A stretch of 64,000 nucleotides of DNA, from positions 62,001 through 126,000 of the forward strand of contig CAJXQC010000002.1 of assembly GCA_913058495.1 (NCBI GenBank), given 5' to 3'. Made by a program: the position numbers and the translations under genes. This document shows, one piece after another, positions 12,783 to 16,311 of the stretch (the stretch's first letter is position 1; every line of letters begins with the position of its first letter). The notes beneath the pieces were generated by a model. The model made no database searches. It saw nothing but the letters and a program-made list of their open reading frames with translations, and was not told where the DNA came from. This DNA is from an uncultured Balneola sp. (GTDB taxonomy: Bacteria; Bacteroidota; Rhodothermia; Balneolales; Balneolaceae).

Positions 12783-13664
12783 TTAAATAAAATCTTTCAC
12801 TTCTTTGAATTTGATAGTTCCATTTATTGGCACTTGAGCAATTCGGTTTAAATGAATGTCTAAAATTTTACCGATTCTCGGATAGCCACCCACCGTTTGC
12901 CCGTCTTTCATCAAAATAATGGGCAAACCATTTGGTGGAAGTTGTATGATTCCCGGTATTACTCCCGAGGATTTCATATCAACCTGATTCATCGCAATGG
13001 GCTTTTCTGATTCCAATCTTATACCCATTCGGTTACTTTTCGAACTTACCCTGAAAGACGAATTCAAAAATCTATCTTTCTCCTGATCATTCAATTGATC
13101 CCATTCCGGTCCGGGTATAAATTCAATGGTTCTTTTAGAACTGTAATAAGGAATCTCATCATTTTGTAATGTTCGGGTCTCTAAGCTTTCCGAAATTTCC
13201 TGCCAGCTTATCTGATCACCTTTTTTCAACTGAGTTCCATTCAGGCCTCCAAATTTCCCCAATGTAAAAGTGGAACAGCTACCCATAACTTTATCAATAT
13301 CCCAACTACCTCTTATCGCCACATAAGCCCGACATCCTTTTTTGGCGAATCCCAATTCCAGTGTTTCTCCAGCTCTGACCTTAACAGAAGTGTTCATTTC
13401 TATTCCGTTATCGTTAATACCGGGATTCATTAAAGCCCCTGTTATCGCTATAGTGGCATCAGTATTAAATTGATACTTCCCTCCCTTTAATGTGCATTCC
13501 AGAACCGGTGCATTTTCAGAATTTCCCGCTAAGAAATTAGCTTTTTTATATGCAGAGATATCCATTACTCCGGAAGCAGGAACTCCAAATTTTCTATATC
13601 CTGATCTTCCTTTGTCTTGTATAGTAGTGAACAAGCCTCCATCCAGTACAGTAAGTTTACCCAT
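12783..13664 (-). CDS. pxpC: 5-oxoprolinase subunit C (biotin-dependent carboxyltransferase family)
   Basis: This is the larger subunit of the prokaryotic ATP-dependent 5-oxoprolinase, formerly YbgK/KipA. The start MGKLTVLDGGLFTTIQDKG matches the family start; the ORF track begins seven codons earlier at 13685. Either start overlaps the end of pxpB. Family motifs include GRSGYRKFGVPASGVMD near the N-terminus, ECTLKGGKYQF, and a C-terminal GIIQLPPNGLPIILMKDGQ and GGYPRIG. With PxpA and PxpB it opens 5-oxoproline to glutamate using ATP. It is the last gene of a four-gene operon. Confidence 0.9.
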   Translation of the reverse strand: MGKLTVLDGGLFTTIQDKGRSGYRKFGVPASGVMDISAYKKANFLAGNSENAPVLECTLKGGKYQFNTDATIAITGALMNPGINDNGIEMNTSVKVRAGETLELGFAKKGCRAYVAIRGSWDIDKVMGSCSTFTLGKFGGLNGTQLKKGDQISWQEISESLETRTLQNDEIPYYSSKRTIEFIPGPEWDQLNDQEKDRFLNSSFRVSSKSNRMGIRLESEKPIAMNQVDMKSSGVIPGIIQLPPNGLPIILMKDGQTVGGYPRIGKILDIHLNRIAQVPINGTIKFKEVKDFI

Positions 13665-14349
13665 TTCTATTCTCCCGGGTTTCAAATTCCGTTTTGGTTA
13701 TTCGGACAAACTTTACTTTGTCACCGAGTCTAAACTGTGTTGGAGGCTCAGAAGTTATATCAAAAAAAGAAGATGGAGATCTGCCAATAATTTGCCATCC
13801 TCCAGGACTTTCAAGAGAGTAAATTCCGGTTTGATGTCCTCCAATCCCGACAGATCCTGCCGGTATTTTTGTTCTGGGATTTTCTTTTCTTGAAACTGAA
13901 ATACGATCATCCAGCCCATCCAGAAATATAAACCCGGGCAGAAAACCCATCATAGCAATTGTGTATTCCTGCGAAGAATGAATGGAAATTATCTCTTCTT
14001 TTGTAAGTCCGGTTTTGGTTTCCATCTCCTTCCAATCCATTCCCAATTCATAACAAACATTTATTTCATGAGTTTTCGAATTTAACTCGGACTCAATATT
14101 TTTTGTCTCAAGGCCGGAAAGAACTTCTTTAGCATTGATATCAGAAGAGCTAAAAATAACAGTCAGCGATTCATATGCAGGAATCACATCTGTTAATCCT
14201 TGTATTTCCGAAAATTCTAAAAGAAAAGCAGCTTGATGTATAACATCTAATAATCCTTTCTCTGCATTTGGCTGCAGTAGCCAGGTAGTTTCACCCATCC
14301 TGAAAACAGTCCAGGAAATCCCATTAAGTTGCAGTGATCCTAACTCCAT
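13657..14349 (-). CDS. pxpB: 5-oxoprolinase subunit B (allophanate hydrolase subunit 1 family)
   Basis: The 230-residue protein matches PxpB (YbgJ/KipI): HEINVCYELGMDWKEM, GFLPGFIFLDGLD, IPAGSVGIGGHQTGIYSLE and GGWQIIGRSP are diagnostic. It forms a complex with PxpC that works with PxpA. The start at 14349 overlaps the end of pxpA by 26 bases and its end overlaps the start of pxpC, indicating tight translational coupling. Length is in the normal range. KipI homologues also inhibit a sporulation kinase in Bacillus, but a 5-oxoprolinase role fits this gene order. Confidence 0.92.
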   Translation of the reverse strand: MELGSLQLNGISWTVFRMGETTWLLQPNAEKGLLDVIHQAAFLLEFSEIQGLTDVIPAYESLTVIFSSSDINAKEVLSGLETKNIESELNSKTHEINVCYELGMDWKEMETKTGLTKEEIISIHSSQEYTIAMMGFLPGFIFLDGLDDRISVSRKENPRTKIPAGSVGIGGHQTGIYSLESPGGWQIIGRSPSSFFDITSEPPTQFRLGDKVKFVRITKTEFETRENRNG

Positions 14350-15082
14350 GATTTTTTAGAAATTGATGAATATTTCTGGCCAGCTCCTCGGAACCTTTTG
14401 TGTCGCTGTGTAAACAAATAGTTTCAGCCTTGATAGGTAACTCCTTGCCTGAGTATGCGATAACCTTTTCTTCGATCACCATTTTAAAAATTTGTGTCAA
14501 TACTTCTTCTTTTTTATGAAGAACGGCCCCTTCTTGTCCGCGAGATCGTAATCTTAAGTCATCTTCATACGCGCGATCTGCAAATACTTCAGCGCAAAAT
14601 TTCAGCTCATTCTTCAGAGCTGCTTTTTCGAACTCTGATCCTGATTGTCCATAAACAACAACATCCAGACTCAATTCTTTGATAGCTTCAGCTACCGTTT
14701 TAGCAATGTCTCTGTATGCTGAAGCCGCATTATATAATGCTCCGTGGGGTTTTATGTGATGAAGCTCCACTCCTTCTCTGTCTGCAATTTCTTTTAAGCT
14801 TAGTATTTGGTCTTTGATACTGTTCTTAAGTCGATCCTGGCTCATTTCGAGCTGTCTTCGCCCAAACCCTGCCCGGTCCGGATAAGAAGGATGTGCTCCT
14901 ACCTTCACTTTATTTTTTTTAGCTAGAATTACTGTCCATCGCATACTGATTTCATCACCAATATGGCCACCACAAGCAATATTACACGATGAAATGTAAG
15001 GCATAATAGCTTTATCAAGATCAGGACCATCTTCTGATATCCATTCTCCCAGATCACAATTTAAATCGATGCTTGTTTTCAT
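14324..15082 (-). CDS. pxpA: 5-oxoprolinase subunit A (LamB/YcsF family)
   Basis: The 252-residue protein has the LamB/YcsF signatures DLNCDLGEW at the N-terminus, SSCNIACGGHIGDE near residue 31, VGAHPSYPDRAGFGRR near residue 61 and VELHHIKPHGALYN near residue 105. Together with PxpB and PxpC it makes the ATP-dependent 5-oxoprolinase. The ATG overlaps the stop of the upstream transporter gene by four bases (ATGA), so the transporter and enzyme are co-translated. Length is normal. Confidence 0.93.
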   Translation of the reverse strand: MKTSIDLNCDLGEWISEDGPDLDKAIMPYISSCNIACGGHIGDEISMRWTVILAKKNKVKVGAHPSYPDRAGFGRRQLEMSQDRLKNSIKDQILSLKEIADREGVELHHIKPHGALYNAASAYRDIAKTVAEAIKELSLDVVVYGQSGSEFEKAALKNELKFCAEVFADRAYEDDLRLRSRGQEGAVLHKKEEVLTQIFKMVIEEKVIAYSGKELPIKAETICLHSDTKGSEELARNIHQFLKNHGVRITAT

Positions 15083-16311
15083 AAGAACTGAAATACACTA
15101 TTTAAACTTCTGAAGCCAACCAATAACGCCACTAAAACTACTACGAGACCCAAAATATTCTGAATGGTTGTATTCACATAATCCCCCAACACTTTCTTTT
15201 GATTTACGATATACATCAAAAATATTGCTACCATTGGAAGTAATATTCCATTGGCTACCTGAGCAAACTGGATAATGCTTACAGGACTAAAACTCAGCAT
15301 TGAAAACAAAACGCCAATAGCCAGAATGATAATCCAGACTGCTTTGAATTTTGGATGCTTCATATCTATTTCCCAACCCAGAATTCCTTTTGCTGCAAAT
15401 GCCGCTGCCAGTGGTGCTGTTATAGCAGACGAGATTCCTGCAGCCACCAAACCCAATCCTAAAAAGCCTTTTGCCCAACTGCCCAGTAATGGCTCAAGCT
15501 GTACAGCCATATCAGCGGCGTTCTTGATTTCTGAACCTGAACTTCCTGATGCCGCACTTGTTATCACAATACACATAGAAATAATTCCACCTAAAATAAT
15601 GGCAACCATATTTTCTTTTCTCAAATCCGAAAGCTGACCGGTTTCGGAATATTTTTGTTGTACGGATGACGCATGCAGAAACAGATTATATGGAACTACT
15701 GTCGTTCCTATTAAAGCCATAACCAATAGAATCTCGTCGGCTGAAACAGTTGGAATAAATAACCCTTTAACTACTTCTGAAAGATCAGGAGCGATCATAA
15801 TTGCTGTTGCCAGAAACACCACACTCATTACTACAACCAGACCGACCAAAAAATTCTGAATTCGCTTAAAATTTCCTGAATAGAGTAACCAAAAGGCAAT
15901 CCCGCCTATAATCAGTGGAACTAATCTGATTTCTACTCCTTCTATTATAATATTTACAGCAGGTAAAACTTCGTTCCAACCAAGAACAGCGCCGGATATA
16001 TTTCCTCCTTCATATGCTGCATTACCAATTACAATTGCACCCAAAACCAATGTGATCCCTAAGATTCTTAATAACGGGTTTTGCAGTTCGCCACGAATTG
16101 CTTCGCCGAATCCCTTTTGAGTTATTAAACCCAAGCGGGCGGTCATTTCCTGTAAAACAATGGTCGCTATCACCGAAAAAAGTAATGCCCAAAGCAACGT
16201 ATAGCCCGAATTTACTCCTGCGAGAGTGCATACGGTAACCGTTCCGGGACCGATGAAAGCCGCTGTAACTAAAGTACTTGGACCAAAATATTTTTTAACT
16301 TGCAATTTCAT
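15079..16311 (-). CDS. NRAMP-fold transporter of the pxp operon, metal-site residues replaced
   Basis: The 410-residue protein has about 11 membrane segments and clear NRAMP/MntH-type sequence (KYFGPSTLVTAAFIGPG, ALIGTTVVPYNLFLHASS). In metal-transporting NRAMPs, segment 1 carries DPGN and segment 6 carries an MPH motif; Asp, Asn and Met bind the metal. Here the same places read GPGT and VPY, so the metal-coordinating side chains are missing. It is the first gene of the operon and overlaps pxpA by four bases. Bacillus has an NRAMP-like gene, ycsG, beside ycsF. A role in uptake of 5-oxoproline or a related organic acid is inferred; manganese transport seems unlikely. Confidence 0.85.
   Translation of the reverse strand: MKLQVKKYFGPSTLVTAAFIGPGTVTVCTLAGVNSGYTLLWALLFSVIATIVLQEMTARLGLITQKGFGEAIRGELQNPLLRILGITLVLGAIVIGNAAYEGGNISGAVLGWNEVLPAVNIIIEGVEIRLVPLIIGGIAFWLLYSGNFKRIQNFLVGLVVVMSVVFLATAIMIAPDLSEVVKGLFIPTVSADEILLVMALIGTTVVPYNLFLHASSVQQKYSETGQLSDLRKENMVAIILGGIISMCIVITSAASGSSGSEIKNAADMAVQLEPLLGSWAKGFLGLGLVAAGISSAITAPLAAAFAAKGILGWEIDMKHPKFKAVWIIILAIGVLFSMLSFSPVSIIQFAQVANGILLPMVAIFLMYIVNQKKVLGDYVNTTIQNILGLVVVLVALLVGFRSLNSVFQFL

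Follow-up and report, generated by a model that had tools for sequence, protein, structure and literature searches.

NRAMP/SLC11 proteins constitute a textbook family of metal transporters. Several described relatives depart from this picture, among them the YcsG/PxpT proteins, for which two substrates have been proposed. Bacillus YcsG was linked to 5-oxoproline uptake by Niehaus 2017 (cited through PMC10448178 and PMC13274462), and Mack 2026 did the same for Corynebacterium PxpT, reporting that a C. glutamicum delta-pxpT strain does not grow on 5-oxoproline and that growth is restored by complementation (PMC13274462). In contrast, a 2023 paper called YcsG a Mn importer and reported that its overexpression raises cellular Mn2+ (PMC10448178). 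A second relevant group is the 'orphan outgroup' of Slc11, which the accessible parts of Cellier's two papers treat as a phylogenetic outgroup with no substrate assigned (PMC9606685, PMC10606218), and which, in the view of Shin 2014, connects metal transporters in evolution with carriers whose substrates are not metals (PMC4072509). According to Cellier 2023, a set of sites separates Slc11 from this outgroup within the same Pfam family; in the outgroup h1 has G and T, h3 has a Y and an N spaced by four together with a GYGNGG pattern, h6 has T, V and Y, and h10 has A, N and G (PMC10606218).

The locus studied here lies in the window, by which we mean the whole stretch of 64,000 nucleotides that was analysed from an uncultured Balneola sp., and consists of a transporter gene followed by pxpA, pxpB and pxpC, all running in one direction with overlapping ends:

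15079..16311, minus strand: Nramp-family (PF01566) transporter of the FIGPGT clade, the putative Slc11 'orphan outgroup', 410 aa, gene 1 of the predicted operon (ORF, Pfam, clade tree, AlphaFold model)
14324..15082, minus strand: pxpA, 5-oxoprolinase subunit A (LamB/YcsF; NF003814, 282.8 bits, cut-off 226)
13657..14349, minus strand: pxpB, 5-oxoprolinase subunit B (TIGR00370, 166.4 bits, cut-off 145.55)
12783..13664, minus strand: pxpC, 5-oxoprolinase subunit C (TIGR00724, 284.9 bits, cut-off 230.2)

The transporter ORF is intact with an ATG start, and its membership of the Nramp family is well supported (PF01566, E=1.1e-84, 284.9 bits against a gathering cut-off of 29.8). Its stop codon and the pxpA start share the bases ATGA, which bears out the four-base overlap reported in a preliminary description of this DNA. 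Since the gene upstream, a DUF1801 gene from about 16370, is divergent, the set begins with the transporter, and cotranscription with pxpABC is predicted from the overlapping genes. All three 5-oxoprolinase subunits are found together, PxpA and PxpB scoring over NCBIfam/Pfam cut-offs and PxpC over that of TIGR00724; the PxpC equivalog NF045499 also matches pxpC, under its own cut-off. The start of pxpC is an ATG at 13664, and the listed ORF begins at a TTG at 13685. Pairwise comparison with two congeners gives dN/dS values of 0.043 and 0.033, as expected of a maintained gene under strong purifying selection, and a degenerate transporter or pseudogene is ruled out by these values together with the invariance of its central site, the segments of which were located by alignment:

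16240..16251, minus strand: TM1 unwound segment GPGT (residues 21-24), replacing DPGN
15685..15708, minus strand: TM6 unwound segment GTTVVPYN (residues 202-209), replacing GATVMPHx
15979..16026, minus strand: TM3 signature G96, Y100, G103, N104, G107 and G111 (GYGNGG pattern of the orphan outgroup; cf. PMC10606218)
15247..15264, minus strand: TM10 residues A350, N354 and G355, as in the orphan outgroup

The metal positions were compared with six canonical and four NRMT sequences, and the alignments in TM1 and TM6 are unambiguous. Residues 21-24 read GPGT where canonical NRAMPs have DPGN, and residues 206-208 read VPY where these have MPH, as had been noted earlier from the letters; in DraNramp numbering the changes are D56 to G21, N59 to T24, M230 to V206 and H232 to Y208, and no intact Asp, Asn or Met is placed at the TM1/TM6 site. 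The same G, T, V and Y occupy the four metal positions in 34/34 aligned clade members, and this invariance, combined with a dN/dS of 0.03-0.04, indicates that the substitutions are not due to chance. In TM3, Asn104 is invariant in the clade, and the best ungapped register pairs it with the canonical Glu134 (mean BLOSUM 13.1 for Asn104 vs -20.2 for Glu101). Against NRMT, shifting the register by three residues, so that Glu101 faces the NRMT Glu, scores almost equally well (8.3 vs 5.4); residue 101 is E in 27 clade members and Q in the other 7 of the 34, and Cellier 2022 gives the outgroup one ancestral TM3 Glu (PMC9606685). Because the TM3 register relative to NRMT is uncertain by three residues, so that Glu101 may occupy the place of Glu134, a fully acid-free centre is not claimed, and the loss concerns the ligands of TM1 and TM6, not every acid near the site. 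A TM8 Na2-type sodium site (A291, S294-S295) was considered as a discriminator and dropped, as canonical NRAMPs carry the same pattern.

Relatives were gathered from three sources, namely 198 genomes belonging to this phylum, plasmid records and a single scan of named genomes. They place the window protein in a FIGPGT clade that forms one group in the tree (support 99/96) and spans Bacteroidota, haloarchaea, gammaproteobacteria and one SAR324 genome. The window protein carries 10/10 signature positions of the orphan outgroup, and these are kept in 34/34 clade members apart from Y100 (26 Y, 8 F), A350 (33/34) and G355 (32/34). In h1 the changes shared with the outgroup of PMC9606685 and PMC10606218 are D>G and N>T; in h6 they are A>T, M>V and H>Y, and the A/N/G of h10 is shared as well. 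Judged by this signature, as opposed to a tree with Cellier's sequences, the window clade appears to be the Slc11 'orphan outgroup', and what the present analysis adds to the outgroup as described in the accessible parts of those papers is a tie to 5-oxoprolinases.

Structural comparison gives the window protein the NRMT/NRAMP fold. An AlphaFold2 model built from an alignment of 30 sequences (pLDDT 85.5, pTM 0.85) shows helix breaks near residues 18-21 in TM1 and near 205-206 in TM6, and a Foldseek search ranked EleNRMT first (TM-score 0.85), followed by canonical NRAMPs, the YcsG model 9a52 and then APC amino-acid carriers. The canonical NRAMP/MntH proteins DraNramp and BfraNramp share the fold (TM-score 0.78-0.82, 25-30% identity), whereas the window protein lacks equivalents of their DPGN, MPH, Glu124 and His232. 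NRMT, although the best structural match and alike in the TM6 pair Thr203-Thr204, keeps a TM1 Asp and a TM3 Glu, neither of which the window protein has at the best-aligned positions. The NRMT signature of DxxG in TM1 and TxxA/T in TM6 (PMC8806188) is absent from the window protein, which reads GPGT and TTVV and falls in a separate clade. The APC carriers ApcT, a CAT homologue, AdiC and BasC have in common with it the LeuT fold and a glycine-rich unwound TM1 (TM-score 0.57-0.70) but differ in Pfam family, at 11-18% identity.

The relation to the YcsG family was examined with members located by gene order, a peptide serving only as search bait, so that the family is represented here by pxp-operon members and not by the studied YcsG/PxpT sequences themselves. 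In Bacillus badius the order is pxpA, transporter and putative hydro-lyase, and both pxpB/pxpC and an IclR regulator lie close by; the Deinococcus transporter comes after pxpA-pxpB but is separated from them by two transposase genes; and further pxp-linked members occur in Lactiplantibacillus, Paracoccus, Moraxella, Klebsiella and Thioclava. We had expected the window protein to be a YcsG/PxpT orthologue, and this was rejected by an identity of 21-25% to YcsG-family members (vs 25-30% to DraNramp, BfraNramp and EleNRMT) and by the tree, in which the YcsG group (100/100) and the FIGPGT clade (99/96) are separate and each monophyletic. As a tree holding the two branches as sisters is not rejected (p-AU 0.35), no claim of an independent origin of two 5-oxoprolinase-linked branches is made, even though the best tree separates them. 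YcsG/PxpT/PxpG (MntG) of Bacillus, Corynebacterium and Clostridioides and the A. baumannii MumT-like protein resemble the window protein in the Nramp fold (TM-score 0.79 between the PDB integrative model 9a52 and the window model), in an Asp-less TM1 GPG, a TM3 Asn and a TM6 Tyr, and in the pxp operon, while their motifs differ (TM1 IGPGFLTQT and TM6 GGTVGGY, against IGPGTVT and GTTVVPY in the window). Five residues, G21, G96, G103, N104 and Y208, are common to the FIGPGT clade and the YcsG family and absent from the metal transporters used, the single exception in the sample being G103, missing in one sequence. Such residues argue against an NRAMP-like metal site in the YcsG family too, with the reported Mn2+ effects remaining compatible, and the dispute between 5-oxoproline (PMC13274462) and Mn2+ (PMC10448178) concerns a related but different family.

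Three observations on the YcsG family may be recorded here. An A. baumannii protein (L164, NZ_CP064203.1) belongs to it, with TM1 AMGPGFLTQT, beside pxpA-like and pxpBC-like genes; going by PMC5050338 it is probably MumT, a reported Mn2+ importer that would nonetheless be an Asp-less YcsG-family member and a poor fit with an NRAMP-type metal site. Klebsiella plasmids commonly carry a YcsG-type transporter together with PxpA, a putative hydro-lyase and genes of urea-amidolyase type (L165, CP143971.1; about 93 records), and a member from Ilyobacter polytropus (L166) has no listed oxoprolinase gene nearby.

The neighbouring enzymes give a clue to the substrate. Among 80 loci of named genomes picked by transporter similarity alone, pxpA lies downstream within 1 kb in 68 and within 6 kb in 2 more, while 6 have a HyuA/HyuB-type or fused OPLAH-type ORF instead of pxpA (four haloarchaea with HyuA+HyuB and two Bacteroidia with a fused ORF) and 4 have neither in view. 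HyuA and HyuB directly follow the transporter in the haloarchaeal loci L073, L077, L102, L122, L126 and L146, three of which have an Asp/Glu-racemase-type gene, and the same haloarchaeal arrangement is seen again on Halorussus and Haloarcula plasmids, where the transporter gene abuts that for HyuA. In the Bacteroidia (L112, L148) the ORF directly after the transporter is a fused oxoprolinase of 1252 aa with Hydantoinase A and B domains; Rhodothermia-like genomes (L040, L042, L043) have split HyuA+HyuB at the transporter; and pxpA-less genomes of the window genome's own family have a fused oxoprolinase-type ORF of 1279-1341 aa beside it (L039, L065), the 1279-aa ORF of L039 overlapping the transporter gene. 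Among solved structures, those nearest to the fused protein are N-methylhydantoinase and entries that bear the name 5-oxoprolinase/hydantoinase. PxpABC, the partner in Bacteroidota and gammaproteobacteria, has no Pfam family in common with the HyuAB/OPLAH enzymes that take its place in haloarchaea, Rhodothermia-like genomes and Bacteroidia, and the clade tree requires at least two switches between these non-homologous enzyme types. The lactam ring is the only thing common to the partner enzymes.

The co-occurrence survey proposed in the preliminary description gave a concordant answer. The clade is present in 48/198 genomes of the phylum, all 48 of which carry PxpA (36) or Hydantoinase_B (12), vs 28 of the 150 clade-negative genomes; counted by genus the figures are 24/24 and 19/78. 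The corresponding p-values (Fisher 2e-26; 6e-12 by genus) ignore relatedness, and their literal size should not be relied on. The counting was done by hand from tables, and 4 of the 48 genomes were assigned by score with the motif unread, one of them (G128) having a copy broken by a stop at the contig end. Because relatedness is uncorrected in these p-values, enzyme replacement under a conserved transporter is the stronger argument.

A point against a tie to 5-oxoproline is that some clade members lack an oxoprolinase next door, among them group B (VVTYN), members in G053, G194, G076 and G111, and loci L117, L127, L131 and L145, although wherever the genome could be checked, it holds one. A subgroup with FVGPGTV and TTVVTYN (L034-L036 and L038, from G163, G175, G179 and G030) likewise has no adjacent oxoprolinase, with PxpA or Hydantoinase_B elsewhere in each genome. 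The Natrononativus clade member (L075) has no listed oxoprolinase gene nearby, and in L145, from the SAR324 cluster, the next gene after the transporter is a DUF2848 gene, shortly beyond which the contig ends. In most Flavobacteria loci the gene immediately upstream of the transporter is a DUF2891 (PF11199) gene, and the two often share a few bases (examples among L078-L157, and L117:6857-8008, L131:6887-8008 and L057:4415-5572); in these last three it is paired with the transporter while the pxp genes are not adjacent, and in L117 it has an apparent lipoprotein-type N-terminus. Its product is possibly an enzyme releasing or forming 5-oxoproline. The window genome has no DUF2891 gene.

Taken together, the clade-wide loss of the metal site and the tie of the clade to two unrelated lactam-hydrolase families make an organic substrate the best reading, most simply 5-oxoproline. 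This agrees with the suggestion, made in the preliminary description from the missing site, that an organic compound is carried, with the correction that YcsG is not an orthologue of the window protein. Import of Mn2+ or another divalent metal through a rebuilt site, for instance to supply the enzyme, as claimed for YcsG (MntG) and MumT, is in our judgement very improbable. Mn2+ phenotypes are indeed reported for B. subtilis YcsG (PMC10448178), a report that counts against the importer reading, and for A. baumannii MumT (PMC5050338); NRMT offers a precedent of a site rebuilt for Mg2+ (PMC8806188), and Glu101, kept or replaced by Gln, might contribute. However, NRMT retains its two acids, whereas the clade has no acid at the aligned TM1 site and neither His nor Met; cofactor supply would leave unexplained why a lactam hydrolase is always the partner even as its family changes to an unrelated one; and two ZIP-family matches in the genome could serve metal uptake. 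A metal-supply role is thus disfavoured, since the metal ligands are lost and the partners follow lactam chemistry across unrelated enzymes.

We consider it probable, on the strength of the residues and the gene neighbourhoods, that the transporter is a coupled importer of 5-oxo-L-proline (pyroglutamate), although substrate, import direction, binding pose and H+/Na+ coupling are inferred. Under this proposal a LeuT-fold secondary carrier would bring 5-oxo-L-proline into the cell, with uptake coupled to H+ or Na+, and PxpABC, made from the same mRNA, would open the ring at the expense of ATP, yielding glutamate as a source of carbon and nitrogen. The helix-breaking GPGT of TM1 could hold the carboxylate through free backbone amides and the Thr hydroxyl, as GxG motifs do in APC carriers, while Tyr208 of TM6 and Asn104 of TM3 would replace His232 and the Glu134/Asp131 region and hold the ring; this pose, with the carboxylate on GPGT and the ring near Y208 and N104, is taken by analogy from the APC carriers. 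The importer proposal is supported by the distant YcsG-family relatives, similar in their Asp-less GPG, TM3 Asn and TM6 Tyr, which are needed for growth on 5-oxoproline (PMC13274462).

Two further readings share the organic substrate. The main substrate could be another small cyclic amide or imino acid (a hydantoin, a substituted 5-oxoproline, a pyroglutamyl peptide or a proline-like compound), as suggested by HyuA/HyuB homologues that include hydantoinases and a caprolactamase, by the racemase-type gene at some haloarchaeal loci, as in hydantoin utilisation, and by a TM6 residue that differs by group (VPY, VGY, VTY); we regard this as unlikely for the window protein, whose partner PxpABC has 5-oxoproline hydrolysis as its described reaction (PMC13274462), 5-oxoproline being also the simplest substrate common to PxpABC and OPLAH-type enzymes. 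HyuAB-type enzymes do act on hydantoins and caprolactam too, and haloarchaeal members may carry another lactam. Export of 5-oxoproline or of glutamate-derived waste is the least credible reading and hardly to be expected: 5-oxoproline forms spontaneously in cells, and detoxification could be the purpose of a link to a disposal enzyme, but an exporter would be redundant beside a hydrolase acting on the same compound, and deletion of PxpT, in a distant relative, abolishes growth on external 5-oxoproline (PMC13274462).

An organic substrate in the Nramp fold has been proposed before, for YcsG in 2017 and PxpT in 2026, and is not categorically new; a substrate switch in this fold, which the preliminary description rated a notable discovery, has a precedent in these two proteins, both already linked to 5-oxoproline (PMC10448178, PMC13274462). 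What is new is that the subfamily is a different one, that it is identified with the 'orphan outgroup' and that it is paired with two unrelated lactam-hydrolase families; no earlier report of such an NRAMP pairing with 5-oxoprolinase or hydantoinase/pyroglutamate was found in the literature covered, which left out most subscription papers. Databases label every NRAMP/SLC11 member a divalent metal transporter, and automatic annotation will mislabel this clade, because the window protein scores above the threshold of the 'Nramp family divalent metal transporter' model, NCBIfam NF037982 (88.3 bits, cut-off 50). A wider proposal, which we advance tentatively and would not yet favour, is that the orphan outgroup as a family imports 5-oxoproline/lactams, that the YcsG-like site is ancestral or convergent, and that the divalent-metal transport of NRAMP/SLC11 evolved from a cyclic-amide or amino-acid carrier. 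Should the branch closest to SLC11 be shown to carry an organic lactam, these labels would be corrected. The finding, if true, would also bear on the conflict between 5-oxoproline and Mn2+ over YcsG, and it would offer a concrete starting point for tracing the origin of metal transport within the LeuT fold. For marine Bacteroidota and haloarchaea, it names a candidate route of 5-oxoproline uptake.
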